DNA of 33,590 nt. Origin: Dermatophilaceae bacterium (GTDB lineage Bacteria > Actinomycetota > Actinomycetes > Actinomycetales > Dermatophilaceae). The notes beneath the pieces were generated by a model. It was not told where the DNA came from. It did no database searches and saw nothing but the letters and a program-made list of their open reading frames with translations. Positions 6,909 to 29,385 of the stretch are shown in pieces; the stretch's first letter is position 1, and every line of letters starts with the position of its first letter. A program made the position numbers and the translations under genes. The stretch covers positions 1 through 33,590 of the forward strand of contig JACMPC010000267.1 of assembly GCA_014377705.1 (NCBI GenBank), read 5' to 3'.

Positions 6909-6911
6909 GGC

Positions 6912-7253
6912 TCAAGCCTCCGCCAGTTCGAGTGAGGTGAGCACGAGCTCCTCACCAGTGGTCACGCTGACGTCGGCTCCGTCGCACTGCGTACACAGCA
7001 GCAGGAGCTCATCGGTCAGTGTGGTGGTGGAGCTGCAGTCCCGGCAACGCAACGTGACCGGCACCGTGTCGACCACGAGCTGCGACCCGGCCAGCGTGGT
7101 CTGATCTGAGACCACGGTCCAGCAGTACGTCAGTGTGTCCGGCACGACCTGGCGCAGCTGACCGACCTGAAGGTGGATCGCGGTCACGGTCCGCCCCGCC
7201 GCGGTGCGGTCGACGATCTCAAAGATCGACTCGCACATGGAGAGCTCATGCAT
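6912..7253 (-). CDS. hypA: HypA, hydrogenase nickel metallochaperone
   Basis: HypA binds nickel and hands it to the HoxH precursor with HypB. The 113-residue protein begins MHELSMCESI, placing the nickel ligand His2 directly after Met1, and has the structural zinc site as two pairs, Cys70/Cys73 (CRDC) and Cys87/Cys90 (CTQC). Length and order of motifs are those of the family. It lies between hypE (83 bp gap, the only sizeable gap in the operon) and hypB (3 bp gap), so it may carry its own ribosome-binding region or an internal promoter; no clear promoter is seen. Confidence 0.95.
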   Translation of the reverse strand: MHELSMCESIFEIVDRTAAGRTVTAIHLQVGQLRQVVPDTLTYCWTVVSDQTTLAGSQLVVDTVPVTLRCRDCSSTTTLTDELLLLCTQCDGADVSVTTGEELVLTSLELAEA

Positions 7254-7336
7254 GCCGGTGCCTCACTCCGATCGACTCCCGACGCGGGTCCGTCGTCCGG
7301 TACTGGCTTTCCTCCGGCTGACCTCTTGCGCTCTCA

Positions 7337-8413: not shown

Positions 8414-9513
8414 CTGGCGTCCACAACGTCAAGGCGCCGGTAGGCGTAGTAGGCGGCGCAGGCGCCTTCGGACGAGACCATCGTGGCGCCGAGTGGTTTG
8501 CGAGGCGTGCACTGCGTGCCGAACGCCGCGCACTCATGCGGCTTGATCAGACCCTGCAGCACCTCACCCGAGCGGCACAGGGTGGACTCATCGGTGTGGA
8601 TGTCCGCAACGTCGAAACGCCGCTCCGCGTCGAGATCGAGATACCGGTCCGACAGCCTCCAGCCGCTCTGCGGAATCATCCCGATACCGCGCCAGGTCCG
8701 GTCGGTCACCTCGAACACCTCTCGAAGCATGGTCATCGCCGCGATGTTGCCCTCGGCCTGCACGGCTCGGGGGTAGGCGTTCTCCAGCTCATAACGGCCC
8801 TCCTCGAGCTGGATGACCGTCTTGCGAATCCCCTCGAGGATGTCCAGCGGCTCGAAGCCGGTGACCACGATCGGGACCCGGTACCTCTGCGCCAGCGGCG
8901 GGTACTCCGATGTGCCCATGACGCTGCACACGTGCCCTGCCGCCAGGAACCCCTGCACCCGGCAGGTCGGAGACTCCATGATCGCGGCCATCGCCGGCGG
9001 GACCAGGACATGGGACACAAGCATCGAGAAGTTCTTGATGGACAGGCGTTTGGCCTGGTAGACCGTCATGGCGTTGGCCGGTGCGGTCGTCTCGAAACCA
9101 ATCCCGAAGAAGACGACCTCCTTGTCCGGGTTCTGCCGGGCGATGTTCAGGGCGTCCAAGGGAGAGTAGACCACGCGGACGTCCCCGCCACCGCTCTTGA
9201 TCATGAAGAGGTCCTGGGTGCTGCCGGGGACCCGCAGCATGTCGCCGAAGGAGCAGAGGATGACGTTGTCCAGGGCGGCGATCGCCAAAGCCTTGTCGAT
9301 AATCTCCAACGGGGTGACGCAGACCGGGCACCCCGGGCCGTGAATCATCTCCACGCCTTCGGGCAGCAGCTGGTCGATGCCGTGGCGGATGATCGAGTGG
9401 GTCTGACCGCCGCAGACCTCCATCAGCGCCCAGCTCTGGGTGGTGGCGGCGTGGATCTGGTCGAGCAGCTTCTTAGCCAGATCGGGGTTGCTGAACTCGT
9501 CGAGATACTTCAT
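8410..9513 (-). CDS. hypD: HypD, Fe(CN)2CO scaffold protein
   Basis: HypD, a 4Fe-4S protein, forms with HypC the platform on which the iron receives CN and CO ligands. This 367-residue protein shows [15 protein letters not shown] with Cys34, [11 protein letters not shown] with Cys62 and Cys65, a GFETTAPA segment, and the cluster-binding C-terminus CAAFGTQC followed by [17 protein letters not shown]. All signature cysteines are present. It overlaps hypC and hypE by 4 bp each, as expected for a tightly coupled operon and a stoichiometric complex. Confidence 0.96.
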
Positions 9514-9806
9514 CGTCCGGTTCCCTGGTCGATTCCTGCCTGCCGGGCGGCGCGCGTGAACCCGTCGCCGAGCTCGTCCTCCAGGATCCCGAGCTTCCTG
9601 AAGTCGGCAAGGGTCTCCCGGGCCGACTCTTCGTCGAGCCGCTGGATGGCGAAGCCGACGTGCACGACGACGTACTCACCGACCTTCACATCCGGGATGT
9701 AGTGCATGCACACCTGCTTGCGGACCGTGCCGAAGTCCACCTCCGCCATGAGGGCGTCATCGATGTCGGCGATGCTGACGACGCGCCCTGGAATTGCTAG
9801 ACACAT
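9510..9806 (-). CDS. hypC: HypC, hydrogenase maturation chaperone
   Basis: HypC carries the iron-ligand unit with HypD and then docks on the hydrogenase large subunit. The start [10 protein letters not shown] provides the essential Cys2 once Met1 is removed. The short beta-barrel core ([22 protein letters not shown]) and the HVGFAI motif are typical. At 98 residues it is slightly longer than many HypC proteins because of a C-terminal extension. The start lies inside the last codons of hypF (10-bp overlap), and its stop overlaps hypD. Only one hypC is present, so it presumably serves HoxH. Confidence 0.95.
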
Positions 9807-12390: not shown

Positions 12391-12903
12391 ATGTCACGAG
12401 GGGTGAGGGTCGTGCCAGTTCGCGCAGCGAGGCCTGAGGTGCCCAGTGACGACAAACGCTGGCGCATCGTCGAGACGCGGATGCGTCGCCTCGGAAGCCG
12501 TCCCGACGCCCTCATCGAGGTGCTTCACTCGGCTCAGGAGGCGTTCGGCTTCCTGGACGACGACGCGTTGCGATTCGTCAGCGACAGCCTCCGGGTTCCG
12601 CCTTCGAAGGTCTTCGGGGTGGCCACGTTCTACCACCACTTCACACTGAAGCCGCACGGTGAGCATACGTGCGTCGTCTGCACCGGTACGGCGTGCTATA
12701 TCAACGGCGCGGACGAGATCCTGAGCTCGATCAAGGCGGGGCTCGACGTCAAACCCCGGGAGACGACGGCTGACGGAAAGCTGTCGCTCCTCACCGCCCG
12801 CTGTCTGGGCGCGTGCAGCCTCGCCCCGGTGGCAACCGTCGACGGGGCGGTTGAGGGCAGGGTCAGCTCGAGCGACCTCGTGGCGAAACTGGCGGGGCTG
12901 TGA
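12391..12903 (+). CDS. hoxE: HoxE, [2Fe-2S] subunit of bidirectional [NiFe]-hydrogenase
   Basis: HoxE is the 24-kDa (NuoE-like) electron-transfer subunit of the diaphorase part of the NAD-linked hydrogenase. The thioredoxin-like domain carries the four cluster ligands as CTGTAC (Cys97, Cys102) and CLGAC (Cys138, Cys142), after the usual [11 protein letters not shown] segment. The start is uncertain: ATG 12391 has no clear ribosome-binding site, whereas in-frame GTG 12412 lies ten bases behind GAGGG and would remove seven residues. It begins the rightward hoxEFUYHW operon and overlaps hoxF by 4 bp (GTGA). Presence of HoxE separates this enzyme from the HoxE-less soluble hydrogenase type. Confidence 0.93.
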
Positions 12904-14570
12904 GCGAGTCTGCCCCCTCGGCTCCCCCGGCGCCGCCGAAGCGACCCCGGCGTGCGGCCGACGGCCTTCGGCCCCTCGAAGGCCCGGCGCGGGCGTCGGC
13001 GTATGTCTGTGAGGCTGTCAGCTGCCTGTCGGCCCAGTCGCACGATATCCTTCTCAAGCTGGGGGAGCAGGTCTCCGGTGCCGGTCTCAAGGACGTGGAG
13101 GTCAAGCGCGTCGGCTGCCTCCTGCTGTGCGCCTCGGGTCCGCTCGTCCAGATCCCGGGCACCGGCCAGCTCTTCTCCAACGTCCGGCCCGACGACCTCG
13201 ACGCCATTGTCGAGGCGCTCGCCGATGTGACGCCGGGCGAGCAGCGCGCGCCCGAGGCGCCGTTCTTCAGCCGGCAGCGGCGCATCGCAACGGAGAACTC
13301 CGGTCGCATCGACCCTGAGAGCCTGGACGACTACGTCGAGAAAGGTGGCTTCGAGGCGCTCCGATCCGTCCTGACCTCGATGACTCCCGCGCAGGTGCGC
13401 GAAGAGATCACCCGCAGCGGCTTGCGAGGCCGTGGTGGGGCCGGCTACCCGACCGGTCTGAAATGGAACACCGTTGCCAAGGCTGTGGGCTCGCCGAAGT
13501 ATGTCATCTGCAATGCGGACGAAGGTGACCCCGGAGCGTTCATGGACCGCAGCGTCCTGGAGAGCGACCCTTACCGGGTCATCGAGGGGATGGCGATCGC
13601 TGCCTACGCCGTCGGTGCCAGCGAAGGCTACGTCTACTGCCGGGCCGAGTACCCCCTCGCGGTCAGCCGTCTCCGCAAGGCCATTCATTCGGCAGGCCGA
13701 GCCGGTTATCTCGGCTTGCACATCCTCGATAGCAAGCTGGGCTTCGAGGTCGACGTGCGACTGGGGGCGGGTGCTTTCGTGTGCGGTGAGGAAACCGCGC
13801 TGATCGCGTCCGTCCAGGGGGGGCGGGGCACTCCCACGACGCGCCCGCCATATCCCGCAGTGGCCGGCCTCTGGGATCAGCCGACCCTGATCAACAACGT
13901 CGAGACGTTCGCCAACATCGCGCCGATCATTCGCAAGGGAGGCGCCTGGTTTGCCGGCATCGGGACCTCGACCAGCAAGGGAACCAAGGTCTTCGCGCTC
14001 GCCGGCCGAGTCGTGAACACAGGTCTGATCGAGGTGCAGATGGGCACCACGCTGCGGGAGATCGTCTTCGACATCGGTGGCGGGATCGTTGACGGCCGCG
14101 CCTTCAAGGCTGTGCAGACCGGAGGTCCCTCGGGCGGCTGTATTCCGGCTGAGTTCCTCGACATGGGGGTCGACTACGAGTCGCTTGTCGGGGTCGGATC
14201 GTTCATGGGGTCCGGTGGCATGATCGTGATGGACGAGACGTCCTGCATGGTCGATGTGGCGAGGTACTTCATGGACTTCTGCCGCGAGGAGTCGTGCGGC
14301 AAGTGTGCCCCGTGCCGGGTCGGCACGACGCAGCTGTGGATCTTGCTCGATCGGATCAGCCATGGAGGGGCGACGTTGGACGACCTGGCTCAGATGGAGC
14401 GTCTGGGCGCCATGGTTCAGCGGACGAGCCTGTGCGGACTCGGCCAGGGCGCCCCGAACCCGATCTTCAGCACCCTGCGCTATTTCCGGGACGAGTACCT
14501 CGCCCACATCGTGGACCGGGTCTGTCCTGCTGGCGTATGTGCGATCGAACCAGCGCCGGTGCCGGTATGA
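12900..14570 (+). CDS. hoxF: HoxF, NADH-binding diaphorase subunit of [NiFe]-hydrogenase
   Basis: HoxF exchanges electrons between NAD(H), FMN and iron-sulphur clusters. This 556-residue protein has an N-terminal thioredoxin-like domain with Cys37, 42, 73 and 77 in 2Fe-2S spacing, the FMN/NADH motif [14 protein letters not shown] (176-189), the second nucleotide motif [14 protein letters not shown] (289-302) followed by QGGRG, and a 4Fe-4S site with Cys466, 469, 472 (ESCGKCAPC) and Cys512 (SLCGLG). It resembles NuoF, but the following hoxY and hoxH show it belongs to a hydrogenase rather than complex I. GTG start overlaps the hoxE stop; its stop overlaps the hoxU ATG. Confidence 0.95.
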
Positions 14571-15286
14571 CCACGGTCCACACCTTTCGGATCAACGGTT
14601 CCGATGTGGCCGGGACCGATGGCCAGTCGATCCTCGCCGTGGCCACGGAGAACGGCATCGACATCCCGACGATGTGCCACCTCGACGGGCTCTCCGACAC
14701 CGGCTCGTGCCGCCTGTGCGTGGTCGAGGTCGCGGGTTCGAGCAAGCTCACGCCGGCGTGCACCACGCTCGTCTCCGAGGGAATGGACGTCAGTACCACC
14801 TCCGAGCAGCTCTGCGGGTACCGCCGGACGATCATTGAGATGTTGTTCCTCGAGCGCAACCACATCTGTGCTGTCTGCGTCGCCAACAATCATTGCGATC
14901 TGCAGAACCTGGCCGAGGAGCTGAAGCTAGACCACTTCGAGCTGCCGGTCATCGCCCCCAAGGTCGGCATCGACGCCAGTCACGCCCTTTTCGCGATCGA
15001 CCACAACCGCTGCATCATGTGCGTCCGCTGCGTGCGTGTCTGCGACGAGGTCGAGGGTGCGCATACCTGGGACGTGATGGGCTCGGGGATCGGCGTGCGG
15101 GTCGTTACCGACATGGGGACTCCCTGGGGCGAGTCCACGAGCTGCACAAGCTGTGGTAAGTGCGTCCAGGTCTGCCCCACCGGAGCGCTCTTCGAGAAGG
15201 GACGATCTATCGGAGAGGGCAGCAAGGAGCGGCGTCCCTTCCTGCCGTACCTGAAGAACCAGGCCCAGGAGCCTGAGCTCACGTGA
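14567..15286 (+). CDS. hoxU: HoxU, iron-sulphur diaphorase subunit of [NiFe]-hydrogenase
   Basis: HoxU wires HoxEF to the hydrogenase module, like the N-terminal part of NuoG. The 239 residues hold a plant-type 2Fe-2S site (Cys37, 48, 51, 65), a His-ligated 4Fe-4S site (His99, Cys101, 104, 110 in [13 protein letters not shown]) and two ferredoxin-type clusters (Cys149, 152, 155, 159 and Cys193, 196, 199, 203). ATG 14567 overlaps the hoxF stop (ATGA); the frame is open further upstream but there it only mirrors hoxF. It ends well before the long C-terminal domain of NuoG, as HoxU should. GTGA overlap couples it to hoxY. Confidence 0.95.
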
Positions 15287-15813
15287 CCAAACCCACTCTC
15301 GCCACCGTCTGGCTCGACGGCTGTTCGGGTTGCCACATGTCATTCATCGACATGGACGAGCGCCTGCTCGAGATCGCGGAGCGCGCCGATATCGTCTACA
15401 GCCCGCTCGTCGACACCAAGGTGTACCCGGACCACGTCGACCTCTGTCTCGTCGAGGGGGCGGTGTCCAGCGAAGATGACCTCCGCAAGATCAAGCTCAT
15501 CCGCGAACGGACGGGGACTCTCATCTCGTTCGGCGACTGCGCCATCACCGCCAACGTGCCGGGGATGCGCAACCCTATCGGCGTCCAGCCGCTGTTGGAG
15601 CGCGCCTACCTGGAGAACGTGACGCTGAATCCGGGAGCTCCGACCGAGGTGGTGCCCGCGTTGCTGCCGATGGCACTGCCGGTGCATCGCGTCGTCAAGG
15701 TCGACGTCTTCCTGCCGGGCTGTCCGCCGTCGGCCGATCTCATCCACCAGTCGCTCGTGGATCTGCTCGAGGGGCGCACCCCCGACACCCGCGGCGCCCG
15801 CTTCGGCCGCTGA
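15283..15813 (+). CDS. hoxY: HoxY, small subunit of bidirectional [NiFe]-hydrogenase
   Basis: HoxY carries the single proximal 4Fe-4S cluster that takes electrons from the nickel-iron centre. Its ligands are visible as Cys14 and Cys17 (WLDGCSGCHMS), Cys86 (SFGDCA) and Cys147 (LPGCPPS). At 176 residues it lacks the C-terminal two-cluster domain and the twin-arginine signal of membrane-bound uptake hydrogenases, so the enzyme is cytoplasmic. It starts with GTG overlapping the hoxU stop and precedes hoxH by 9 bp. Confidence 0.95.
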   Translation: MTKPTLATVWLDGCSGCHMSFIDMDERLLEIAERADIVYSPLVDTKVYPDHVDLCLVEGAVSSEDDLRKIKLIRERTGTLISFGDCAITANVPGMRNPIGVQPLLERAYLENVTLNPGAPTEVVPALLPMALPVHRVVKVDVFLPGCPPSADLIHQSLVDLLEGRTPDTRGARFGR

Positions 15814-15822
15814 GGAGCCTCT

Positions 15823-17247
15823 ATGAGCAGCAGCAAGATCGTCATCGACCCGGTCACCAGGATCGAGGGCCACTCGAAGATCACGATTCAGCTCGACGAC
15901 CAGGGCGAGGTGGTCGATGCCCAGTTTCACGTGACGCAGTTCCGGGGCTTCGAACGCATCGTCGAGGGCCGCCCCATCCACGAGATGCCGTCCATCATGG
16001 CGCGCATCTGCGGGATCTGCCCGGTCAGCCACCTGATCGCTTCGGCGAAGGCCTGCGACCAGATCCTCGCGGTCGTGCCCCCGCCCACCGGGATCGACCT
16101 TCGCCGGGTGCTCAACCTGGCGCAGATCGTCCAGTCGAACGCCCTCAGCTTCTTCCATCTCTCCTCGCCGGATCTGTTGTTCGGTTTCGAGGCGGATCCT
16201 GAGCAGCGCAACATCATCGGCCTTGCCCGGGCTCACCCCCAGCTTGCCCGCGACGGCGTGGGGGTCCGCAGGTTCGGGCAGCAGATCATCGAATGGCTGG
16301 GCGGCAAGCGGATCCACCCCGGTTGGGTCGTGCCCGGTGGCGTCGATGCGCCGCTCGAGGCGGAGACGCGCGACCGGATCCTCTCCACGATCCCCGAAGC
16401 GATCGCCGCGATCGAACGGGCCCTCGCCTGGTACAAGTCGTCGCTGGTCCAATGGGAGGACGAGGCGGCCTCGTTCGGCGACTTCCGGTCCGCCTTCATG
16501 GGCCTGGTCGATCAGGACGGCAACATCGACCACTACGACGGGCTGCTGCGGGTCATGGACGCCGACGGCCACTACCTCGCCGACCGGATCGACCCGACGA
16601 CGTACACCGACTATCTGGGCGAGGCGGTCGAGCCCTGGTCCTATCTGAAGTCGACCTACTGGAAGAAGCTCGGCTACCCGGACGGGGTCTACCGGGTGGG
16701 ACCGCTGGCCCGGATGATCGTGGCAGGACAGCTGGGTACGCCGCGCGCCGACCTGGAGCTCGACGAGTTCCGCCGGCGACTCGGGCGCGTCCCCAGCAGC
16801 TCGTTCCACTACCACTACGCCCGGCTGATCGACGCGCTCTATGCCGCCGAGCGGATCGAGGAGCTCCTGCTCGGGCCTGACATCCTCTCGCCGCGAGTGC
16901 GCTCGTTCGCCGGGATCAACAGCAACGAGGGAATCGGCGTCTCCGAGGCACCGCGCGGCACGTTGCTCCACCACTACAAGGTCGATGACGACGGGATCGT
17001 CCAGTGGGCGAACCTCGTGATTGCCACCGGGCACAACAACCTGGCGATGAACCGCAGCGTCCGACAGGTCGCGAAGCGCTACGTCAAGAGTGCCCAGCTG
17101 ACCGAACCGATGCTGAACCGGGTCGAGGCAGTGATCCGCTGCTATGACCCCTGTCTGTCCTGCTCGACGCATGCACTGGGCGAGATGGCCCTTCATCTCC
17201 AGCTCATCGGCCCCACCGGGACGGTGCTGGACGAGATCAGGCGATGA
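15823..17247 (+). CDS. hoxH: HoxH, catalytic large subunit of bidirectional [NiFe]-hydrogenase
   Basis: HoxH holds the NiFe(CN)2CO centre and splits or forms H2. The 474 residues include RIEGHSKITI near the N-terminus, the L1 motif RICGICPVSH with Cys63 and Cys66, and the C-terminal DPCLSCSTH with Cys444 and Cys447, giving all four metal-bridging cysteines. After His450 there is a 24-residue tail beginning ALGEMAL, which HoxW should remove once nickel is in place. A GGAG ribosome-binding site fills the 9-bp gap after hoxY. With HoxE, F, U and Y the set fits group 3d; in studied relatives the enzyme works in both directions with NAD(H), in some with ferredoxin or flavodoxin. Confidence 0.96.
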   Translation: MSSSKIVIDPVTRIEGHSKITIQLDDQGEVVDAQFHVTQFRGFERIVEGRPIHEMPSIMARICGICPVSHLIASAKACDQILAVVPPPTGIDLRRVLNLAQIVQSNALSFFHLSSPDLLFGFEADPEQRNIIGLARAHPQLARDGVGVRRFGQQIIEWLGGKRIHPGWVVPGGVDAPLEAETRDRILSTIPEAIAAIERALAWYKSSLVQWEDEAASFGDFRSAFMGLVDQDGNIDHYDGLLRVMDADGHYLADRIDPTTYTDYLGEAVEPWSYLKSTYWKKLGYPDGVYRVGPLARMIVAGQLGTPRADLELDEFRRRLGRVPSSSFHYHYARLIDALYAAERIEELLLGPDILSPRVRSFAGINSNEGIGVSEAPRGTLLHHYKVDDDGIVQWANLVIATGHNNLAMNRSVRQVAKRYVKSAQLTEPMLNRVEAVIRCYDPCLSCSTHALGEMALHLQLIGPTGTVLDEIRR

Positions 17248-17717
17248 CAGACGGGGTCGTCGTCGTGGGCTACGGCAACGCGCTGCGCACCGATGACGGG
17301 CTTGGCTGGTATGCGGCGGATCGCCTCGCCAAGGATCCGAGGCTGACCGGAGTCACCGTCCTCCAGCGCCATCAGCTGATGCCTGAGCTCGCTCTCGACA
17401 TCAGCGCCGCCATACTCGTCGTGCTCGTGGACGCGAGTCACGGTATCCCCCCGGGCGCCGTCACTGTCACGCAGGTGGAGCCAGCGAGCGACGCCGCGAC
17501 GACATGGTCGCATCACCTCAGCCCACCCAGCGTCGTCGCGCTCGCCCATGAGCTGTACGGCCGGGCAGCGGAAGTCTTTCTCGTGCGCTGCGGGGTGGAG
17601 TCGTGCGAGATGGGGGATCGGCTGTCGCCTGTGGTGATGACGGCATTGCCGCAGGTGGTTGACGCGGTGGTGGAGCTCATCGCCTCGTGCGCTGCGGAGC
17701 ACAGGGCCGATGGGTAG
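17244..17717 (+). CDS. hoxW: HoxW, hydrogenase maturation endopeptidase
   Basis: HoxW cuts off the C-terminal tail of HoxH after nickel insertion. The 157-residue protein belongs to the HybD/HycI fold: GYGNALRTDDGLG (9-21) with Asp18, a VLVDAS strand with Asp63 and HHLSPP with His91 correspond to the nickel-probing Glu16, Asp62 and His93 of HybD. HQLMPELA (43-50) is the HoxW-type second loop. Its ATG overlaps the hoxH stop, so protease and substrate are made together. It is the last gene of the hox operon; no strong terminator is seen after it. Confidence 0.93.
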   Translation: MTDGVVVVGYGNALRTDDGLGWYAADRLAKDPRLTGVTVLQRHQLMPELALDISAAILVVLVDASHGIPPGAVTVTQVEPASDAATTWSHHLSPPSVVALAHELYGRAAEVFLVRCGVESCEMGDRLSPVVMTALPQVVDAVVELIASCAAEHRADG

Positions 17718-18275: not shown

Positions 18276-18680
18276 TCAGTCGCCGGTGAATATCTTGATG
18301 AGCTCGCTGACGCGATGGTCGGCCTCTGCAGGGTGCCGGAAGGCCAGTTCGTCGTGCACGATGTAGCGGTTGCGGCGGCCGACCCGCGCCTTGGTGAGGT
18401 AGCCGGCGAGCTCGAGATCCCGGACGATCGTGGCGGCTGCCCGCTCGGTGATCCGGGCATGGTCGGCGATATCGCGCAATCGGATGTCCGAGTCCCGCGC
18501 GATGAGCAGCAGCACCCGTCCATGCGAGGTCAGCAACGTCCAGACCTTCCCTGGGCGCGCCGGGCTCGCGAGGTTTTCGCCCTGGTGTCCTTGGGCCACG
18601 CCCTGCTCGGCTGGCTGAGCCCGCGACGACGTCTGGAGGGCAGCAGGTCGGGATGACGGCGGTCTGCGGTTGGGTGACAC
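18276..18680 (-). CDS. winged helix-turn-helix regulator, MarR/ArsR-like
   Basis: The core from about residue 46 reads VWTLLTSHGRVLLLIARDSD, then RLRDIADHARITERAAATIV and RDLELAGYLTKARVGRRNRY. It is a winged helix with the recognition helix at ITERAAATIVRDLE and an Arg-rich wing. The C-terminus (HPAEADHRVSELIKIF) looks like a short dimer helix. The first 45 residues are Pro/Ser/Gln-rich and may be untranslated: GTG 18680 lacks a good ribosome-binding site and a GTG at 18599 is an alternative. No metal or ligand site is evident. It is divergent from the DabB-DabA gene with an 81-bp gap, the classic position for a local repressor or activator of that gene. Confidence 0.7.
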   Translation of the reverse strand: MSPNRRPPSSRPAALQTSSRAQPAEQGVAQGHQGENLASPARPGKVWTLLTSHGRVLLLIARDSDIRLRDIADHARITERAAATIVRDLELAGYLTKARVGRRNRYIVHDELAFRHPAEADHRVSELIKIFTGD

Positions 18681-18761
18681 GGCCCCATTCTGCCCGAGGG
18701 GTGATGTGGGGGGAACCGCAGGTCGGAGAGAGTCTATGCCAAATAAATTTCATGTATCTTT
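18681..18761. promoter_or_regulatory. AT-rich divergent promoter/operator region
   Basis: The 81 bp contain a patch at about 18737-18770 that is far richer in A/T than its surroundings, including AAATAAATTT (18741-18750, arms AAAT/ATTT) and TATCTT (18755-18760). The patch runs up to the ATG at 18762, where no ribosome-binding site is visible, so a leaderless transcript or a start further inside is possible. The dyad is a candidate site for the adjacent winged-helix protein. Confidence 0.4.
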
Positions 18762-21700
18762 ATGCTTGTGAGTCTCCTAAAGATCGTCCGCGCGCCGATG
18801 GCCGCACTCGTTCTCGTCTCGCTGGTCGTCCTGGGCTGGGCGCTGTCGGGCACCCCGGTGGAACTGTCGCTGGGGCGGATCGATCTAGGCCCTCTGGGTA
18901 GCGCCGACGTAAGCCCGAGCTTCGGCGTCGTGGAGAGCCTCCTCCTCACACTGGTAGCAGGGGTTGGCAACGTCGTGGCGATCTACAGCGCCCGCAACCT
19001 CGTCGGCCAGCACCGCCTGGCACGCTTCGCGGCCTACGAGATCGCGACCGTCGCCGGACTGGCAGTCGCGGTGACCGCGTCATCGCTGCCGATCCTGGCC
19101 GCGGGCTGGACGGCGGCCACGCTGGCCATGTCCGGTCTGGTCGCGCACCCTGGCACACAGCAGGCGCGGCGCGCCGCGCGCCAGATCCGGGCCCGACTCC
19201 TCCTCGGAGATGGGTTGCTGTGGGCGGGGGTCCTCGTCGTCGGGTTCGGGGTAGGAACGCTGGACCGCGCCACCCTGGCGCAGAGCGTCGACACGGCGCC
19301 GGCCTCCGTCGTCACGCTCGCGGCGCTGCTCGTCGTCGGCGCCGGTATCGTGCGCAGCGCGCTCCTGCCAGCTCATCGGTGGCTTCCGGAGACGGCCGAA
19401 GCGCCCTCACCGGTGAGCGCGCTCCTGCACGCGGGACTGGTGAACGGCGTCGGCGTTCTCGCACTCCTGCTCTGGCCTCTGGTCGAGGCCGCCTCCGCCG
19501 CTCGGGTGCTGCTGCTCGTGGTCGGGGCAGCCACGGCCGTGGCCGCCACGGCGCAGATGCGCACCCGGGCCGACGTCAAGGGACGCCTCGCCGCGTCGAC
19601 CTCCGCCCAGATGGGCTATCTCGCCGTCCAGGTCGCGGTCGGCATCCCGGCCGCCGTCCTCGTGCACGTCATCGGCCACGGGGTGTGGAAGTCGTCGCTC
19701 TTCCTCGGCGCGGGCCGGGTGGTGGGCCAGGCCCGGGATCGTGAAACCACGCCGTCCAGCCGTCTTGGCGTGGCCGCGGCACTCGGCGCAGGCTCCGCGG
19801 CGTTCGCCGCGGTGGTGGGGGCGGCTCTGGCTCCAGTGCCGTCCTGGCCAACGCTCACTGCACCGGCGGAGCTGCTGCCGCTGGGCATCGCCGCGGCCGT
19901 ACTGTGTCTGGCCCTCGCCGCGGTGGTGCGACGCGGCGGGCACCTCGTGGCGCAGGTCGTCACATCGGCGATGGTCCTCGGCGGTGGGGTGGTGTACATC
20001 GGCGGGCTTCGGGCGCTCACGGAGGTGCTGGCGAGCAGCTTCGGCGAACCCGCGGCCTGGGGGACCGTCGAGGGATCGGCGGCTGCCGTCGCGATCGTGC
20101 TCCTGGCCGTCACTGCGGCGGTGGGGATGGCGGTCGGCCGGGCCGTCCGCGACGCTCGACTGGAAGCGCTGGCGCGCCGCGTCGCCCGCGCGTCATTGCA
20201 GCCTCCGACGCTGCGCGAGCGAATGACCCGCAAGCCGTCGGTGGCGCTTGCGGTCCCCCCCGTCACCATGGAGGATGCCGCAGCCGCGCGACTGGCTGTC
20301 GATGTCGCAGCGCGGTCCGGCGGTGCCCTCTTCCCGCTCACGTCGTTCGTGGCCAGCAATCCGCTCGCAGGCCTTGAGGACCTCGGCTTCGAAGAGGCGA
20401 CTCGTATCGCCGTGAAGGTCTGGGATGCAGAGACTGGTCCGTCGGCGCAGGCGCTGCGCCGCGCCCTGGCGCAAGGACAAGCCCGCGACGCCGACATCGA
20501 CTCGGTTCTCGACGACGCGCTGGGCGCGCTCCCGGCGGGTGCTGCCGGGTCAGACCATCGCGCCCTGGTCCGCGCGCTCCTCCTTGAGGACGAGGCCTCA
20601 CCCGGGCGTGTCGCATGGGCGGCCGACCTCCTCCTTCGAGCCGGCGTCGAACCGGACCGCGCGTTGAAAACGCCGCTGCAGGTGCTTCCCCTGCCAGCGG
20701 CGGCCTCGATCGACCGGCGGACCCGCATCTTGGCCCATCACTGTTGTATCCGGTCCCTGGCCGGACCGGTCTGGCCGGGCGCCTCCGGGCCGTGGCACGA
20801 GTTGCGTGCCACCGCTCCTGCCCTCGACACGCTGCTGCACCTGCGCGGCGCCGGAGACGTCGTGGCCGCCCTCCCTGCCGAACCCACCGCTGCGATCGCC
20901 GCGCTGCTCGAGCACCTGGGCGTCTCCCCCCGGGACCGCCCAGACCTCCTGGCGCGCCTCCTGGCGCGGGACCCCGGCTGGCCGGCCCACCTCGCCTGGC
21001 GTGCTTGGCACGCCCGGCTCGGCCAGGAGGCGGGAATCGACATCACGCACGAACCCGAGGCGCCGGCACGGTTGCTCGAAGAACTCGTGGCCACCCGCCT
21101 CGCCCTGGAGGTCGTCGTGGCCCAGTCCCACGCGCCTCGCCTGCTCGGTCGCAACCTCGTCGCCGACGATCTCGTGGGGGGCTCGACCCACGCACGACTG
21201 GCCCGGCTCGTGGCTGCCGGTGCCTCGCGTGGTCTGGTCGGCGGGGAGCCGGCGGACCGCGAGGTGCGGGAACTGGCAGGCATCCTCACGCCGCTGGCCC
21301 GGGGTGGACTCGGCCGGCTGCGCGGCGAAGTGCTGGAACATGCCTTCCGCCGTGCCCTGTTCGGCCGGATCGACGCCCCAACCCGCGACCTAGCCTCCCG
21401 GGGCCGCCCGGCCGGCACGGTCGCGAGGCCGGGCACACAGGCACAGGTGGTCACCTGCATCGACGTGCGCTCCGAGAGGCTGCGACGCCATCTCGAGGCT
21501 CTCGGACCGTGGGAGACCCTCGGTGCCGCGGGTTTCTTCGGGATTCCACTGCGGCACACCTCCGTCACCGGCACGGCCACCGAGCGCACGCCCGCGCTGC
21601 TTCGTCCGGTCGTCGCGGTCACGGAGCGGCCCCGGCGTACGCACGGCCTGGCCGGCTCAGCCGATGCCCTGGGCTTCGCGGTCCGGACCGTGGAAGGCTC

Positions 21701-22982
21701 GCCGGTGCTGCCCTTCGGCTGGGCCGAGGCGGTGGGCTGGCTTCTGGCACCCTTCGTGCTGCTGACGACCACCATGCCCCGGTACGCGCGGCGGCTGAGT
21801 GACGCGTGTCGGCGAAGGGTCGGCACGCCGAGCGGCGGGTACTTCGAGGTGGTCGAGGATGTCGGGGTGCCGACGCTCGTCGCGGCCGCCAGCGGGTTCC
21901 TCGCTTCCTTGGGGACGCACGAGCTCGCCCCCCTGGTGGTTCTCACCGGGCACGGCGGCCGGGTCACGAACAACCCGCACGTCGCCGCATATGACTGCGG
22001 GGCGTGCGGCGGCTCCGCGGGTGACGTCAACGCGCGTGCCATGGCCCAGAGCCTGAACGACCCGCGGGTGCGCGCGGCGCTTCGCGCGCGGGGAGTGTCG
22101 CTGCCCGACCGGACGTGGTTCGTCGCGGCGCTGCACGACACCACCCGAGACGTTGTTGACATCCTGGACCGGCACGCGGTTCCGGAACGGCTGCGCGGCG
22201 CGCTGGACCGACTCGAGCACGATCTGACAGACGCCGGGGATCGTGTGCGGTCGGAGCGGCTTGACCTGCCCCCGGACGCACGGCGCGTGTCGGGCCGCCG
22301 GCTCCGTCGGCACGTCGACAACCGCGCAACCGACTGGGCACAGCCGCGACCGGAATGGGGCCTCGCCGGGGCGGCGGCCATCGTCGTCGGACCACGAGAC
22401 CTCACGACGGGGCTCAAGCTGGACGGCCGGGTCTTCCTGCAGTCCTACCGACCCGACCTCGATCCCGATGGCGCGATCCTCGAGCAGCTGCTCACCGCGC
22501 CGGTGATCGTCGCCCAATGGATCACGGCGCAGTACTGGGCGTCCACTGTCGACCCGCACCGCTTCGGTGCCGGGGACAAGACGACGCACAACGTGATCGG
22601 CGACGGAATAACGGTGTCCGCCGTGGTGACCGGTGCTCGCGGCGACCTGCGCATCGGGCTCCCGTGGCAGGCCGTCTCGGCGACCGCCCCGGCCCACAAC
22701 CCGTCCCGGACCGAGGGGCCCTGGCGGGCGGGCACGCGGCACGAGCCGGTCCGCCTGCTCACCCTGGTGAACGCCAAGACCACCGTGGTCGAGGAGATCC
22801 TGGCGCGCCAGCCGTCGGTGGCCCGCCTCGTCGCAGGCGGTTGGATCACCCTGTGCGCGGTGCAGCCTGGGGACGGGCGGATCCTGAGGCGGACCCGGGA
22901 CGGAGCCTGGCTCGCCGACAGCGGCCACCCCGTCGACGGCACCCTTGATGCCCAGGAACGCGCGTCGGTCGGCGACCCCTGA
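18762..22982 (+). CDS. dabB-dabA: DabB-DabA fusion: inorganic carbon (CO2/HCO3-) accumulation pump in one polypeptide
   Basis: The 1406-residue protein joins two modules normally encoded separately. Residues 1 to about 480 are a NuoL/MrpA-like proton-translocating membrane domain with about a dozen hydrophobic helices; RSALLPAHRWLPET (198-211), PVSALLHAGLVN and HVIGHGVWKSSLFLGAG (302-318) are its signature blocks. After a charged linker, residues from about 510 form a DUF2309 (DabA) domain: FPLTSFVASNPLAG near 524, then CIDVRSERLRRHLE with Cys899 and Asp901, and GHGG...NNPH...DCGACGG with His1064 and Cys1079. These correspond to Cys351, Asp353, His524 and Cys539 of Halothiobacillus DabA, the beta-carbonic-anhydrase-like zinc site, so the active site is complete. 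The known two-gene system uses the cation gradient to drive one-way CO2 hydration to bicarbonate. Start alternatives are GTG 18768 and ATG 18798. A winged-helix gene is divergent upstream. Confidence 0.88.
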   Translation: MLVSLLKIVRAPMAALVLVSLVVLGWALSGTPVELSLGRIDLGPLGSADVSPSFGVVESLLLTLVAGVGNVVAIYSARNLVGQHRLARFAAYEIATVAGLAVAVTASSLPILAAGWTAATLAMSGLVAHPGTQQARRAARQIRARLLLGDGLLWAGVLVVGFGVGTLDRATLAQSVDTAPASVVTLAALLVVGAGIVRSALLPAHRWLPETAEAPSPVSALLHAGLVNGVGVLALLLWPLVEAASAARVLLLVVGAATAVAATAQMRTRADVKGRLAASTSAQMGYLAVQVAVGIPAAVLVHVIGHGVWKSSLFLGAGRVVGQARDRETTPSSRLGVAAALGAGSAAFAAVVGAALAPVPSWPTLTAPAELLPLGIAAAVLCLALAAVVRRGGHLVAQVVTSAMVLGGGVVYIGGLRALTEVLASSFGEPAAWGTVEGSAAAVAIVLLAVTAAVGMAVGRAVRDARLEALARRVARASLQPPTLRERMTRKPSVALAVPPVTMEDAAAARLAVDVAARSGGALFPLTSFVASNPLAGLEDLGFEEATRIAVKVWDAETGPSAQALRRALAQGQARDADIDSVLDDALGALPAGAAGSDHRALVRALLLEDEASPGRVAWAADLLLRAGVEPDRALKTPLQVLPLPAAASIDRRTRILAHHCCIRSLAGPVWPGASGPWHELRATAPALDTLLHLRGAGDVVAALPAEPTAAIAALLEHLGVSPRDRPDLLARLLARDPGWPAHLAWRAWHARLGQEAGIDITHEPEAPARLLEELVATRLALEVVVAQSHAPRLLGRNLVADDLVGGSTHARLARLVAAGASRGLVGGEPADREVRELAGILTPLARGGLGRLRGEVLEHAFRRALFGRIDAPTRDLASRGRPAGTVARPGTQAQVVTCIDVRSERLRRHLEALGPWETLGAAGFFGIPLRHTSVTGTATERTPALLRPVVAVTERPRRTHGLAGSADALGFAVRTVEGSPVLPFGWAEAVGWLLAPFVLLTTTMPRYARRLSDACRRRVGTPSGGYFEVVEDVGVPTLVAAASGFLASLGTHELAPLVVLTGHGGRVTNNPHVAAYDCGACGGSAGDVNARAMAQSLNDPRVRAALRARGVSLPDRTWFVAALHDTTRDVVDILDRHAVPERLRGALDRLEHDLTDAGDRVRSERLDLPPDARRVSGRRLRRHVDNRATDWAQPRPEWGLAGAAAIVVGPRDLTTGLKLDGRVFLQSYRPDLDPDGAILEQLLTAPVIVAQWITAQYWASTVDPHRFGAGDKTTHNVIGDGITVSAVVTGARGDLRIGLPWQAVSATAPAHNPSRTEGPWRAGTRHEPVRLLTLVNAKTTVVEEILARQPSVARLVAGGWITLCAVQPGDGRILRRTRDGAWLADSGHPVDGTLDAQERASVGDP

Positions 22983-23107
22983 TGACCAGGCCCGGCCAGC
23001 GCCCCACCTGCAATCACGTCGTCGTGGCCGAGATCGAGACCGATGCCTTCGGAACGTCCTCCGGCGAGGTCTCCAGCCCGGGCCCGAGCGGGGCGATGGC
23101 CCGATGA
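22982..23107 (+). CDS. possible 41-residue protein coupled to the DabB-DabA gene
   Basis: ATG 22982 shares its A with the TGA stop of the fusion gene (TGATG), and its own TGA overlaps the ATG of the next frame (ATGA, 23104-23107), so all three would be translationally coupled. The product begins MTRPGQRPTCNHVVVAEIET and ends GAMAR, with no recognised domain or membrane segment. It may be a real small partner of the pump or the residue of a larger gene. Support is positional only. Confidence 0.3.
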   Translation: MTRPGQRPTCNHVVVAEIETDAFGTSSGEVSSPGPSGAMAR

Positions 23108-23481
23108 GATCGGCCCCGTTCGGTGAGGCCGACCAGGTCAGCTATCGCGGTCGCCGGATCGGGTTGCCTACTCAGCACGGAAAGGAGCGGGTGATCTCGC
23201 CCGAGCTGGATCCTGCGCTCGACTGCCGGGTCGAGCGCGTTGGCGGCTATGACACGGATCTACTCGGTACGTTCACCCGCGATGTCCCGCGGGCCGGCAC
23301 CCAAATTGAGGCGGCAGGCAAGAAGGCACGCACCGGCATGGAACCGTCGGGCCTGCCCCTCGGCCTGGCTAGCGAGGCCAGGTCGCTGCGCACACTGACC
23401 GAACGCCGTCCCTCGGCTCAGCCGCTGACGCAGGACATCGCTCAGCCGCTGAGGCAGGACATCGCTCAGCCGCCGATGTAG
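23104..23481 (+). pseudogene. truncated DUF6671-family protein
   Basis: The 125-residue frame starts MRSAPFGEADQVSYRGRRIG and continues with TQHGKERVISPELDPAL, GGYDTDLLGTFTRDVPRAG and KARTGMEPSGLPLGLASE. These blocks match my memory of the N-terminal third of DUF6671 proteins (about 280 residues; biochemical role unknown). Right after GLASE the family would continue with a GSFGPHP segment, but here it turns into unrelated ARSLRTLTERR and a tail written by the 24-bp repeats that copy the moaA end antisense. It is therefore cut off and most likely dead. It overlaps convergent moaA by 16 bp. Confidence 0.55.
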
Positions 23482-24739: not shown

Positions 24740-25771
24740 TCAGTGGAAGGAGTTCGTGAAGGCGGTCAGGGTGGACATGTAGTTCGCCCGTTCGAAGGCG
24801 GCCGGGTCCGCGACGTGGCGCTGGCTGACGCTGCCCCGCAGCTGCGCCACCGACTCGTATCCGGACTCCGCAGCCCACGCGACGAGCTCTTGTTCCACGG
24901 TGGCGACGTGCTCGGCGCCGTTCACCAGCAGCGAAGAGGTCATCATTGCCACGTCGGCGCCGGCCAGCAGGCAGCGCGCGGCGTCGGCGCCGGTGTGGAC
25001 CCCTGTCGTCACGGCGAGCGACGCCTCGACCCGCCCGGAGAGGATGGCGGTCCAGCGCAGCGGAAGCCTCAGCTCCGCCGACGATGACAGCTCCAGCGCC
25101 GATGTCACCTTCCGGGTCCGGGGGTCGATGTCGGGCTGGTAGAAGCGGTTGAAGAGCACGAGGCCGTCTGCCCCCGCATCGATGATCCGCGCTGCCTGAT
25201 GGCCCAACGCGCTGTAGTGCGGTCCGATCTTGACCGCGAGCGGTATGGACAGGGATGCCTTGACCAGAGCGACGAGCTCCACCTGGTCGTCCTCGATCTC
25301 TCGCCCGGTCACGTCGAGGTCGGCGGCGACCCCGTAGAGGTTGAGCTCGATGGCATCGGCGCCTGCGAGCTCGAGCAGCCGCGCATACCTCACCCAGCCG
25401 CCCGAGGTCACCCCGTTCAGGCTGGCGACCACGGGGATCGACAACGCCTTCTTCGCCTCGTCGACATGGCGCAGATAGCGGTCGGCGACCGACTCGTAGT
25501 CGGCCAGGTCCGGGAAGTAGCCCGTGGCCTCCGGGTTGCTGTCCGCATGCAGGTCGCCCATCTGGTCGGCCTGCATCTCCTCGTGGTCGACCTGCTCCTC
25601 GAACAGCGAGGGCAGGACGACGGCCGCGATGCCGGCCTGCTCCAGGGCGCGAAGTGAGTCGATGCGGGCGGTCAGCGGTCCGGACGAGGCGACCAGCGGT
25701 GTGCGCAGCGGCAGCCCCAGATACGTGGTGGAAAGGTCGAACTCCGGCAGGACTGTCGCTTCGGCGGTCAC
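24740..25771 (-). CDS. dihydroorotate dehydrogenase-like flavoprotein coupled to nifJ
   Basis: This is a TIM-barrel FMN protein of the PyrD superfamily, 343 residues from GTG 25771, which overlaps the nifJ stop (GTGA). It shows TTYLGLPLRTPLVASSGPLT (early strand), PVVASLNGVTSGGWVRYA, AVKIGPHYSALG with the FMN-contact Lys, and late glycine segments that hold the FMN phosphate (TTGVHTGADAARCLLAGAD). The ELNxSCPN motif of true dihydroorotate dehydrogenases is replaced by ELNLYGVAADLD, so orotate is unlikely to be the product. Genes of this type are commonly found beside pyruvate:ferredoxin oxidoreductase, suggesting a flavin-linked role with reduced ferredoxin; the substrate is unknown to me. 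Not a replacement for pyrD. Confidence 0.82.
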   Translation of the reverse strand: MTAEATVLPEFDLSTTYLGLPLRTPLVASSGPLTARIDSLRALEQAGIAAVVLPSLFEEQVDHEEMQADQMGDLHADSNPEATGYFPDLADYESVADRYLRHVDEAKKALSIPVVASLNGVTSGGWVRYARLLELAGADAIELNLYGVAADLDVTGREIEDDQVELVALVKASLSIPLAVKIGPHYSALGHQAARIIDAGADGLVLFNRFYQPDIDPRTRKVTSALELSSSAELRLPLRWTAILSGRVEASLAVTTGVHTGADAARCLLAGADVAMMTSSLLVNGAEHVATVEQELVAWAAESGYESVAQLRGSVSQRHVADPAAFERANYMSTLTAFTNSFH

Positions 25772-28700
25772 TTCGGCACCTCTTCGTTGGCGATTCCCTC
25801 GGGGTCGACGACGTCCCCTGCCTCGTGCGGCACGCTGCGTTCGACTCCGGCCAGCTGCTCGTAGTAGCGCCACCGCTCGTCGACGTCGGCCTGGGCCAGG
25901 GCCATCAAGTGGTGTGCACGATCGGGGTCAGAGCGTTCCAGCATCGCGAAGCGGGCTTCCTCGTGGGCGAAGTCGCGCAGCGCCAACGCCGGCTTGCGGG
26001 AGTCGAGCCGGAACGGCTTGGTGTGCTCGTCAGGCCCGGGCGCGAACCGGTAGAGGGGCCAGTGGCCGCTCTTGACCGCGTTGCGCTGGTGGGTCATGGA
26101 GAACTTCATGTCGATGCCGTGGGCGATGCAGGTGGAGTAGGCAAGCACCAGCGACGGTCCGGGCCAGGCTGCAGCCTCCGCCAGGGCCCGCACGGTCTGA
26201 ACCTCGTTGGCCCCCATGGCGATCTGAGCGACGTAGACGTTGCCGTACTGCATCGCCAGGGCGCCCAGGTCCTTCTTGGGTGTCTCCTTGCCGGAGGTAG
26301 CGAACTTCGCCACCGCGCCCCTGGGGGTGGCCTTGGACGCCTGGCCGCCGGTGTTGGAGTAGACCTCGGTGTCCAGGACCAGCACGTTGACGTTCTCCCC
26401 GGAGGCGAGCACGTGGTCGAGCCCGCCGTACCCGATGTCATAGGCCCACCCGTCACCACCGATGATCCAGACGTCGCTGCGAACCAGATCGTCGGCCAGG
26501 CTCAACAGGTGGCGCGCCGCGGGGTCCGACCCGAGTGTGTCCAGCCTCTCGCGCAGGCGCAGGACCCGCTCCCGCTGGGCGCTGACCCCCGCCTCGTCGG
26601 ACTGGTCCGCGCCGAGGATCTCGGCGGCCAGCTCGGGCCCGACCGCGTCGGCCATGGTGCCCACCAGGGCCCGTGCGCTGGCCGTGCCCTGTTCCTTGCC
26701 CAGCCGCATGCCCAGGCCGAACTCCGCGTTGTCCTCGAACAGGCTGTTGGACCAGGCCGGACCCCGGCCCTGGTCGTTGCGGCTCCACGGCGTGGTCGGC
26801 AGGTTCCCGCCGTAGATCGACGAGCATCCCGTGGCGTTGGCCACGATCATCCGGTCGCCGAAGAGCTGGGTGAGCAGGCGCAGGTATGGCGTCTCGCCGC
26901 ACCCCTCGCACGCGCTCGAGAACTCGAACAGCGGCTGGAGCACCTGCGAGCCCTTGACGGTGTCATGCGGGAGCAGCCCGCGGTCGAGCAGCGGAATGGT
27001 GTCGAAGAACGCGTAGTTGGCGCGCTCTTCGTCCCGGTGCTCGGCAACCGGCTCCATGTTGATGGCCCGGTGCCCGACCACGCTCTTGCTGACCGCCGGG
27101 CACTGCTCCACGCACACCCCGCACCCGGTGCAGTCGTCCGGGGAGACCTGGATGCTCAGCAGGTGCGGTGTCTGCAGCTCCCGGGACTTGAAGGACTTGG
27201 TCGTGAAGGTGTCCGGTGCACCGTCCAGGTTCTCGGGTGGGAGCACCTTCATCCCCATCGCGTTGTGCGGGCAGACGATCGCGCACTTGCCGCAGTCGAT
27301 GCAGATGTCGGCGTCCCAGATCGGGATCTCCTTGGCGAGTGCCCTCTTCTCGTACCTCGTGGTGCCGGTCGGGAAGGTTCCGTCCACGGGCATGGCACTG
27401 ACCGGGAGCAGGTTACCCTCGCCCGCGAGGATGCGGGCGGTCACCCTGGTGACGAAGTCCGGCGCCCCGGCCGGGATCAGCTCGCGCAGCGGGGTGGTCG
27501 AGGTCACCGTCTGCGGCACGGTGAGCTCGTGCAGCTGCGCCAGGGACTGGTCGACCGCTGCGAGGTTGCGCTCGACCACCTTCTGCCCGCGCCGGCCGTA
27601 GGACTTCTGCACCGCCTGCCGGACTGCAGCCAGGGCCTGCTCCTGGGGCAGGATCTCGGAGAGGGCGAAGAAGCACGGCTGCATCACGGTGTTGATTCGC
27701 CCTCGCAGGCCGAGCTCGCCGGCCACCCGGTGTGCGTCGATGACGTGCACCTTCAGCTTCTTGTCGATGATGGCCCGCTGGACCTTCTCGGGCAGCACGT
27801 CCCACACCTCGTCGCTCGGGTACGGCGCGTTGAGCAGCACGGTCGCGCCGGGCTTGGCCACGGCGAGGACGTCCTGGGTGAACAGGAACCCGAACTGGTG
27901 GCAGGCGACGACGTCGGCCTGTTCGATGAGGTACGTCGAGCGGATGGGTTGGGGGGAGAACCGAAGGTGCGAGACGGTCATCGCCCCGGCCTTCTTCGAG
28001 TCGTAGACGAAGTAGCCCTGGGTGTGCAGGTCGCTGTTCTCGCTCACGATCTTGACGGTGTTCTTGTTCGCGCCGACGGTGCCGTCCGAACCCAGCCCGT
28101 AGAACACGGCCTGAACATCGCCGGCCGGCGTGGGTAGCCGGAAGTCGGGGTCAGGGGACACCGACAGGTGGGTCACGTCGTCGACGATGCCGACCGTGAA
28201 CCGCGGCCGCGGCGCCTGCGACTCCAGCTCGTCGAAGACCCCCTTGACCATGGCCGGGGTGAACTCCTTCGAGGAGAGCCCGTAGCGGCCGCCGGTCACC
28301 CGTGGCAGGGCGCCCGGGTCGCGCTTCCCGCTGGTGACGGCCTCGGCCAGGGTCGCGACGACGTCCAGGAAGAGCGGCTCGCCATACGAGCCCGGTTCCT
28401 TGGTGCGGTCGAGCACGGCGACCCGGCCTACCGACAGGGGCAGCGCGGCGACCAGCTCGGCGGCGGGGAACGGCCGGTACAGTCGCACGGTGATCACCCC
28501 GACGCGCTCGCCGCGGCGGTTGAGCTCCTCGACGGTCTCCTGGACCGCGCCAGCGCCCGAACCCATGATCACGATGACGCGGTCGGCCTCCGGATGCCCG
28601 TCATACTCCACCAGGTGGTGCGCGCGCCCGGTGAGCTCTGCCAGCCGGTCCATCGCGTCCTGCACAGCGGCCGGTACCGCGTCGTAGAAGGGGTTTACCG

Positions 28701-29385
28701 CCTCGCGGGACTGGAAGAACACGTCCGGGTTCTGCGCCGATCCGCGCAGTACCGGGTGCTGGGGGCTCAGCCCGCGTTCGCGGTGCGCCACGACGCCGGT
28801 GTCGTCGACCAGTGCCCGCAGGTCCTCCCGTTCGAGCATGTCCACCCGGTTCAGCTCGTGCGAGGTGCGGAACCCGTCGAAGAAGTGCAGGAACGGCACC
28901 CGGGTCTGCAACGCGGCGAGGTGGGCGACGGCGGCGAGGTCCTGCGCCTCCTGCACCGAGCCGGAGGACAACATCGCGAAGCCGGTGGTACGTGCGGCCA
29001 TCACGTCGGAGTGGTCGCCGAAGATCGACAGCGCGTGGGTGGCGACCGCCCGGGCGGCGACGTGGATCACCGCCGGGGTCAGCTCACCAGCGATCTTGAA
29101 CATGTTGGGCAGCATGAGCAGCAGGCCCTGGGAAGAGGTGAAGGTGGTGGCCAGCGACCCGGTCTGCAGCGCGCCGTGGAGTGCGCCGGCGGCGCCGCCT
29201 TCGCTCTGCATCTGGGCCACCCTGGGCACCATGCCCCACAGGTTGGTCCGGCCGGCCGACGCCCAGGCGTCCGCGAGCTCGCCCATCGGCGACGAGGGGG
29301 TGATCGGATAGAGCGTGACGAGCTCGCTCAGCGCATACGCGACCGAGGCCGCCGCCTGGTTGCCGTCGACACAGTCATGCCTCAT
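25768..29385 (-). CDS. nifJ: pyruvate:ferredoxin (flavodoxin) oxidoreductase, single-chain
   Basis: This thiamine-diphosphate enzyme interconverts pyruvate and CoA with acetyl-CoA, CO2 and reduced ferredoxin or flavodoxin in the cytoplasm. The 1205-residue protein has the full homodimeric layout: an N-terminal pyruvate-binding domain (LYPITPSSPMGELAD), the transketolase-like middle domain, a two-cluster ferredoxin domain with CIDCGKCAIVCP from Cys695 and CTGCGVCVEQCP from Cys752, a proximal-cluster site CEGC (Cys826, Cys829) and the ThDP motif GGDGWAYDIGYGG near 975 followed by TEVYSNTGGQ. ATG 29385 lies behind AGGAGAG. The enzyme is oxygen-sensitive in most hosts, so it argues for anaerobic or microaerobic growth. 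Overlaps the flavoprotein gene by 4 bp. Confidence 0.96.
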   Translation of the reverse strand: MRHDCVDGNQAAASVAYALSELVTLYPITPSSPMGELADAWASAGRTNLWGMVPRVAQMQSEGGAAGALHGALQTGSLATTFTSSQGLLLMLPNMFKIAGELTPAVIHVAARAVATHALSIFGDHSDVMAARTTGFAMLSSGSVQEAQDLAAVAHLAALQTRVPFLHFFDGFRTSHELNRVDMLEREDLRALVDDTGVVAHRERGLSPQHPVLRGSAQNPDVFFQSREAVNPFYDAVPAAVQDAMDRLAELTGRAHHLVEYDGHPEADRVIVIMGSGAGAVQETVEELNRRGERVGVITVRLYRPFPAAELVAALPLSVGRVAVLDRTKEPGSYGEPLFLDVVATLAEAVTSGKRDPGALPRVTGGRYGLSSKEFTPAMVKGVFDELESQAPRPRFTVGIVDDVTHLSVSPDPDFRLPTPAGDVQAVFYGLGSDGTVGANKNTVKIVSENSDLHTQGYFVYDSKKAGAMTVSHLRFSPQPIRSTYLIEQADVVACHQFGFLFTQDVLAVAKPGATVLLNAPYPSDEVWDVLPEKVQRAIIDKKLKVHVIDAHRVAGELGLRGRINTVMQPCFFALSEILPQEQALAAVRQAVQKSYGRRGQKVVERNLAAVDQSLAQLHELTVPQTVTSTTPLRELIPAGAPDFVTRVTARILAGEGNLLPVSAMPVDGTFPTGTTRYEKRALAKEIPIWDADICIDCGKCAIVCPHNAMGMKVLPPENLDGAPDTFTTKSFKSRELQTPHLLSIQVSPDDCTGCGVCVEQCPAVSKSVVGHRAINMEPVAEHRDEERANYAFFDTIPLLDRGLLPHDTVKGSQVLQPLFEFSSACEGCGETPYLRLLTQLFGDRMIVANATGCSSIYGGNLPTTPWSRNDQGRGPAWSNSLFEDNAEFGLGMRLGKEQGTASARALVGTMADAVGPELAAEILGADQSDEAGVSAQRERVLRLRERLDTLGSDPAARHLLSLADDLVRSDVWIIGGDGWAYDIGYGGLDHVLASGENVNVLVLDTEVYSNTGGQASKATPRGAVAKFATSGKETPKKDLGALAMQYGNVYVAQIAMGANEVQTVRALAEAAAWPGPSLVLAYSTCIAHGIDMKFSMTHQRNAVKSGHWPLYRFAPGPDEHTKPFRLDSRKPALALRDFAHEEARFAMLERSDPDRAHHLMALAQADVDERWRYYEQLAGVERSVPHEAGDVVDPEGIANEEVPK

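Follow-up and report, generated by a model that had tools for sequence, protein, structure and literature searches.

Among the described DAB carbon pumps, DAB2 of Halothiobacillus neapolitanus is made from two natural genes, fused only by the authors of a 2026 cryo-electron microscopy study, Lo et al., as the complex dissociated in sample preparation (PMC13144422). Their artificial DabB2-DabA2 fusion mirrored the gene of Acidimicrobium ferrooxidans, and growth yield was not significantly changed by it (PMC13144422). In A. ferrooxidans itself, a single fused DAC/MpsAB gene was reported by Fan et al. in 2019 (PMC6689103). The present analysis concerns dabBA, a gene on a 33,590-nucleotide stretch of a Dermatophilaceae genome (contig JACMPC010000267.1, assembly GCA_014377705.1; the whole stretch is called the window below), in which DabB and DabA are joined in one chain. 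The natural fused gene of A. ferrooxidans is reportedly also covered by Schmid et al. 2021, as relayed by a citing paper. An earlier note on this DNA, made from the sequence alone, had known of no characterised fused form, a claim that fails against the 2019 report (PMC6689103). The DabB-DabA fusion is already known, and the fresh point is its convergent appearance in the Actinomycetales. The literature on DabA, DabB, DAC and MpsAB, as far as it was covered and with supplements (e.g. the tree figures of Fan et al.) lying outside that coverage, yielded no mention of Actinomycetales fusions or of two fusion origins. Taken as one joint explanation, the reading that dabBA would encode a single-chain DAB (DAC) carbon pump, with the role and the separate Actinomycetales fusion set out below, is given a probability of roughly 85%.

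The dabBA frame (18762..22982, forward strand) is uninterrupted from the ATG at 18762 to the stop at 22982 and encodes 1406 residues, with DabB followed by DabA, as the earlier note had described. The DabB half is marked by a Proton_antipo_M (PF00361) match at residues 111-386 (19092..19919, forward strand; E 2.8e-26, 92.8 bits against a cutoff of 21.5) and by alignment with DabB2, and NuoL-like signatures, claimed for residues 198-318, were found at 198-310. The DabA half (residues 512-1385; 20295..22916, forward strand) rests on a PF10070 match at residues 515-1316 (E 6.3e-183, 610.6 bits against a cutoff of 25), on alignment with DabA2 over residues 859-1397 and on conservation. A canonical beta-carbonic anhydrase domain (PF00484) was not among the four Pfam families matching the fused protein with E of at most 1. 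Four fused relatives share 55-64% identity with dabBA over residues 130-1329. By eye, the ATG at 18762 has its matching place in four relatives, right after a similar upstream element. Judged by its sequence, dabBA is a real, intact, fused DAB pump in B-then-A order.

The fused gene of A. ferrooxidans is likewise one gene with DabB then DabA, and it keeps the checked catalytic and proton-path residues save Asp590, which is Glu in A. ferrooxidans. Unlike dabBA, it groups with proteobacterial DABs and has a longer DabB tail ahead of DabA. DAB2 of H. neapolitanus shares with dabBA both modules, the zinc site, the finger Glu and the proton-path residues. An actinobacterial DAB on a plasmid of Nocardia cyriacigeorgica (NZ_CP026745.1) has winged-helix and DUF6671 genes nearby and the same B-then-A order, but is unfused, its two genes overlapping by 4 nucleotides. 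The fusions of Actinotalea lenta (L035) and Terrabacter tumescens (L036) belong to the same clade as dabBA and share its architecture and an upstream winged-helix gene, with identities over residues 130-1329 of 64% and 59%, respectively.

Conserved residues, membrane finger and mode of action

Residues of dabBA were matched by alignment with the solved H. neapolitanus DAB2 complex (9rd0; chains 9rd0_A for DabA2 and 9rd0_B for DabB2), and conservation was read from an alignment of 19 chains, comprising 11 fused proteins and eight unfused pairs joined by script. DabA2 Cys351, Asp353, Arg355, His524 and Cys539 of the zinc site correspond to C899, D901, R903, H1064 and C1079, and Glu444 corresponds to E989; these residues, together with S356, H585, W656 and L658 of DabA2, were all matched and are identical in 19/19 rows. 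The same holds for DabB2 Ser256, His260, Lys310, Ser316, His339, His343 and Lys347 (S219, H223, K273, S279, H302, H306 and K310 in dabBA) and for the ion-pair residue Asp185 (D150). Substitutions at the zinc site, at Glu444 and along the proton path impair DAB2, in which two Cys and a His bind the zinc and Asp353, paired with Arg355, keeps the zinc-bound water in place (PMC13144422). The four positions named in the earlier note as the zinc set, C899, D901, H1064 and C1079, stand as given, but D901 is a dyad residue with R903 and not a zinc ligand, because Asp353 pairs with Arg355 in 9rd0.

The DabA half has a sole strongly hydrophobic segment, at residues 982-1001. A structure model of residues 130-1329 (predicted template modelling score 0.70) places a helix-turn-helix at 983-1020, and hydrophobicity, conservation and the model helices (983-1004 and 1006-1020) together mark out a putative membrane finger carrying E989 (21708..21821, forward strand). 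In DAB2 the corresponding DabA finger inserts into the membrane beside DabB, and coupling is placed there and not in the linker (PMC13144422). The idea that a fusion would fix 1:1 stoichiometry and show directly how the modules couple is accordingly weak, as DAB2, though encoded by two genes, has already been reported to be a heterodimer, with coupling assigned to the finger (PMC13144422). When the model was used for a structure search, complex I subunits were matched over residues 130-512. The DabA half was barely probed, and the structural matches listed, from a library reaching to April 2026, did not include the DAB2 structure. Eight of 50 listed rows, all complex I subunits, end at model residues 865-874, inside the finger; such rows report alignment end points only, and these ends are as expected were the finger packed against the channel.

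By analogy with DAB2, we infer the activity, direction and energy source of the fused pump. The N-terminal half would form a NuoL-like proton channel within the membrane, and the C-terminal half a beta-carbonic-anhydrase-like enzyme on the cytoplasmic side of that channel, pushing the helical finger with E989 into the membrane next to it. At the zinc site, CO2 would then be hydrated to bicarbonate in one direction only, powered by the inward flow of protons. Three points tell against so close an equivalence. DabB2 Lys235 is replaced by R198 (the other rows have Lys or Arg, mostly Arg), Arg182 falls opposite L147 and has no exact match in dabBA, and the model has a mean predicted local distance difference test score of 73.9, with its last 60 residues unreliable. 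Regarding the first two, the DAB2 ion-pair residues Arg182, Asp185 and Lys235 are not strictly conserved across the family, and loss of Arg182 or Lys235 reduced function without abolishing it (PMC13144422).

Alternatively, the protein could work as has been claimed for MpsAB of Staphylococcus aureus, by sodium-driven import of bicarbonate instead of CO2 hydration. MpsAB belongs to the homologous family, and a sodium/bicarbonate symporter role has been proposed for it, but DAB2 shows no sodium dependence according to the same study (PMC13144422). In addition, the zinc-site residues required in DAB2 are kept in dabBA, although homologues working in either way may keep them. Sodium-driven import is on balance improbable.

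Role in the host and the hydrogenase neighbourhood

A RuBisCO large chain was found in none of eight genomes, namely the host, three of the same genus and the fused genomes G004, G018, G027 and G096, and none was found in fused G493. With no RuBisCO found, the host probably lacks the enzyme, and a Calvin cycle is an improbable destination for the bicarbonate of the pump. The likeliest role is bicarbonate supply to ordinary carboxylases, which the pump would feed when CO2 is scarce. Several observations weigh against this account. Only four of the eight RuBisCO-negative genomes combine completeness of 90% or more with contamination of 5% or less, and the host assembly lies in 278 contigs, at 96.93% completeness. 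RuBisCO is present in five of 11 further genomes, including the fused genomes of A. ferrooxidans (G174) and G599. Moreover, the host has one PF00484 carbonic anhydrase gene, so that the pump would not be its only source of bicarbonate; this domain was matched in 19 of 20 genomes, the exception being A. ferrooxidans, a host with RuBisCO. With no RuBisCO detected in these hosts, the pump provides further cases of use outside autotrophy, as known earlier for MpsAB.

The window also contains a NiFe hydrogenase operon, in parts at 12900-17717 (forward strand) and 6108-12199 (reverse strand), with NuoF-like and NuoG-like genes, small and large subunits and a protease-like gene. HypF, HypD, HypE-like and HypB-like genes lie in the same region, and the large subunit has VhuA as its best NCBIfam match, with a score below cutoff. 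On the other side of dabBA, a pyruvate:ferredoxin oxidoreductase gene (1205 residues; 25768-29385, reverse strand) stands beside a dihydroorotate-dehydrogenase-like gene.

It might be argued from this setting, with hydrogenase and maturation genes directly upstream and pyruvate:ferredoxin oxidoreductase downstream, that the pump belongs to an autotrophic or hydrogen-oxidising island and supports CO2 fixation with energy from the adjacent hydrogenase, and two fused relatives, G493 and G599, do have hydrogenase genes. In both of these genomes, however, the genes are on other contigs, and the remaining five of seven other fused genomes (G004, G018, G027, G096 and G174) gave no match to the large subunit. 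No counterparts of the window's hydrogenase genes were detected in the flanking DNA searched for the closest fused relatives, and the failure to find RuBisCO again argues the other way. The hydrogenase neighbourhood was set aside as a partner system, and an island of this kind is unlikely; bicarbonate supply to ordinary carboxylases is preferred.

Distribution and origins of the fusion

The PF00361 plus PF10070 architecture was found in ten other fused homologues. In genome samples that overlap, and in each of which the host genome is counted, DabA was present in 5/97 genomes of relatives, 6/396 of the order and 23/396 of the phylum. Eight different genomes of the order have DabA, and seven of these are fused, with G749 unfused. 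The 23 genomes from the phylum sample comprise two with a fusion (the host and A. ferrooxidans), 18 with a DabA frame that lacks a DabB domain and three with fragments only. Three of four titled contigs are fused (Actinotalea lenta, Terrabacter tumescens and an Actinomycetales metagenome-assembled genome), the fourth, from Bradyrhizobium BTAi1, being unfused. Within the family the pump occurs in 4/59 genomes, a patchy distribution that fits transfer or loss. DabA was not found in same-genus genomes, which are 68-87% complete, and no DAB match adjoins their moaA homologues in 4/4 cases, but two of these four contigs stop 0.3-1.5 kilobases beyond moaA.

For the trees, the fused group was defined by architecture before tree building. 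Fragments and duplicate pieces (L026-L034) were excluded from the trees, L009 and L012, for which the wrong DabB neighbour had been picked, were used neither in the DabB tree nor in counting overlaps, and L003-L007, L014, L016, L018-L020 and L039-L041 were replaced with longer stretches from the same genomes. The fused label requires two changes on the DabA tree of 35 rows, and three on the DabB tree of 33 rows, two of them forced by well-supported branches. In the careful DabA tree, built from 24 rows, dabBA falls within a clade of eight fused rows (support 98/95), and A. ferrooxidans is joined to an unfused Thiodictyon plasmid gene (100/99). The ten Actinomycetales fusions, when held together, were not rejected for DabB (p 0.399) and were joined at 87 in the quick DabA tree. 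On these trees the Actinomycetales fusions, dabBA included, are without a common fusion ancestor with that of A. ferrooxidans. A third origin may perhaps be represented by G493 and G599, because in the careful DabA tree both occupy a long branch whose connection with the other eight is not clear-cut.

That dabBA carries the same fusion as A. ferrooxidans, inherited or transferred with no independent event, is very unlikely. The module order is identical and both hosts fall within one phylum, but a single clade of all 11 fused rows was rejected by the approximately unbiased test (DabA, p 1.4e-61; DabB, p 6.9e-10), and one fusion origin was recovered in 0/200 bootstrap trees. In addition, the A. 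ferrooxidans gene shares the longer DabB tail of the unfused Thiodictyon genes with which it groups, and the 19 kilobases searched around its locus showed no winged-helix or DUF6671 partner.

A route to the fusion is suggested by unfused loci in B-then-A order. In 11/13 of these, an ATG or GTG that could serve as the DabA start lies in an overlap of exactly 4 nucleotides with the DabB stop, and in 12/13 the DabA frame is two ahead of that of DabB. The overlap count rests on possible starts, with which the annotation of the Nocardia plasmid agrees, while that of Martelella differs; at L062, one of four annotated plasmid loci, the DabA start is annotated 11 nucleotides past the DabB stop and not at the overlapping GTG. 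The Actinomycetales fusion probably arose through a change of frame at such a 4-nucleotide overlap, for which a small indel could suffice. Repeated fusion in the same order suggests an easily tolerated joint, and naturally fused proteins, now known as a second and independent set, provide single chains ready for use in structural work and in the engineering of bicarbonate supply. The reverse order, DabA then DabB, was observed in nine unfused loci with a DabA frame of about 1300 residues (L008, L010, L011, L013, L015, L017, L021, L022 and L023), and the extra part of these frames, as scanned in L008 and L011, had no other Pfam family above cutoff.

The linker between the halves of dabBA (residues 463-511, about 49 residues, limits set by eye; 20148..20294, forward strand) aligns with zero gaps to the four fused relatives and is 51-57% identical to them; third codon positions differ in 49-63% and first and second positions in 22-33%. 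Although the window is a contig from a fragmented assembly and a single indel would join the overlapping, differently framed genes of unfused relatives, an assembly or sequencing artefact, in which two genes were joined through a missed stop or indel, is hardly credible, because the relatives, ten homologues with differing sequences and two of them from Actinotalea lenta and Terrabacter tumescens, are fused too, the linker is gap-free with codon-like change, and nucleotide alignments with L048 and L035 run unbroken across the joint, which disposes of the lost stop that the earlier note had considered.

Winged-helix gene, operator-like element and DUF6671 remnant

Upstream of dabBA, a divergent winged-helix (MarR-like) gene at 18276..18680 on the reverse strand, with below-cutoff MarR_2 and HTH_24 matches, is the probable regulator and partner of the pump. 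Such a gene was found in 12/35 stretches searched, some with little flank, the window included. These represent seven of the ten Actinomycetales fusions (the window, L035, L036, L037, L046, L047 and L048) and five unfused loci (L053, L054, L056, L057 and L059). It lies within about 0.4 kilobases of the pump genes in ten of the 11 other loci and about 3 kilobases away in L037. The proteobacterial L038, L060 and L062, the haloarchaeal L061 and A. ferrooxidans (L050) showed neither a winged-helix nor a DUF6671 gene next to the pump.

An operator-like sequence with TTTCATGTAT (18735..18761, no strand assigned) adjoins the dabBA start, between the winged-helix gene and dabBA. By eye, TTTCATGTAT-like elements recur upstream of the fused gene in L035, as an inverted repeat, and in L036 and L048, and the element is a possible shared operator.

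A bolder account would have at least two, and perhaps three, separate fusion events, in each of which a frame was restored at the 4-nucleotide overlap; the Actinomycetales branch, to which dabBA belongs, would be a RuBisCO-independent single-chain bicarbonate pump with its own winged-helix regulator and operator, patchy between genera. Its chances are rated as about even, and not higher because three of the ten Actinomycetales fusions tell against it: at L049 (a short contig), L051 and L052, neither winged-helix nor DUF6671 gene was found.

Two small open reading frames on the forward strand, 18315-18656 and 18653-18901, were rejected as genes; neither had a Pfam match, and the first lies antisense to the conserved winged-helix gene. 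A DUF6671 gene was found in 6/35 stretches, namely L035, L046, L056, L057, L059 (annotated) and the window. In the window it is a decayed remnant (23116..23376, forward strand), truncated and 47% identical over 87 residues to the longer DUF6671 gene downstream in L035; none was found in L036. The remnant lies between dabBA and moaA (22983-23463), and similarity to the same-genus genomes resumes at the moaA side of this interval, at about 23463.

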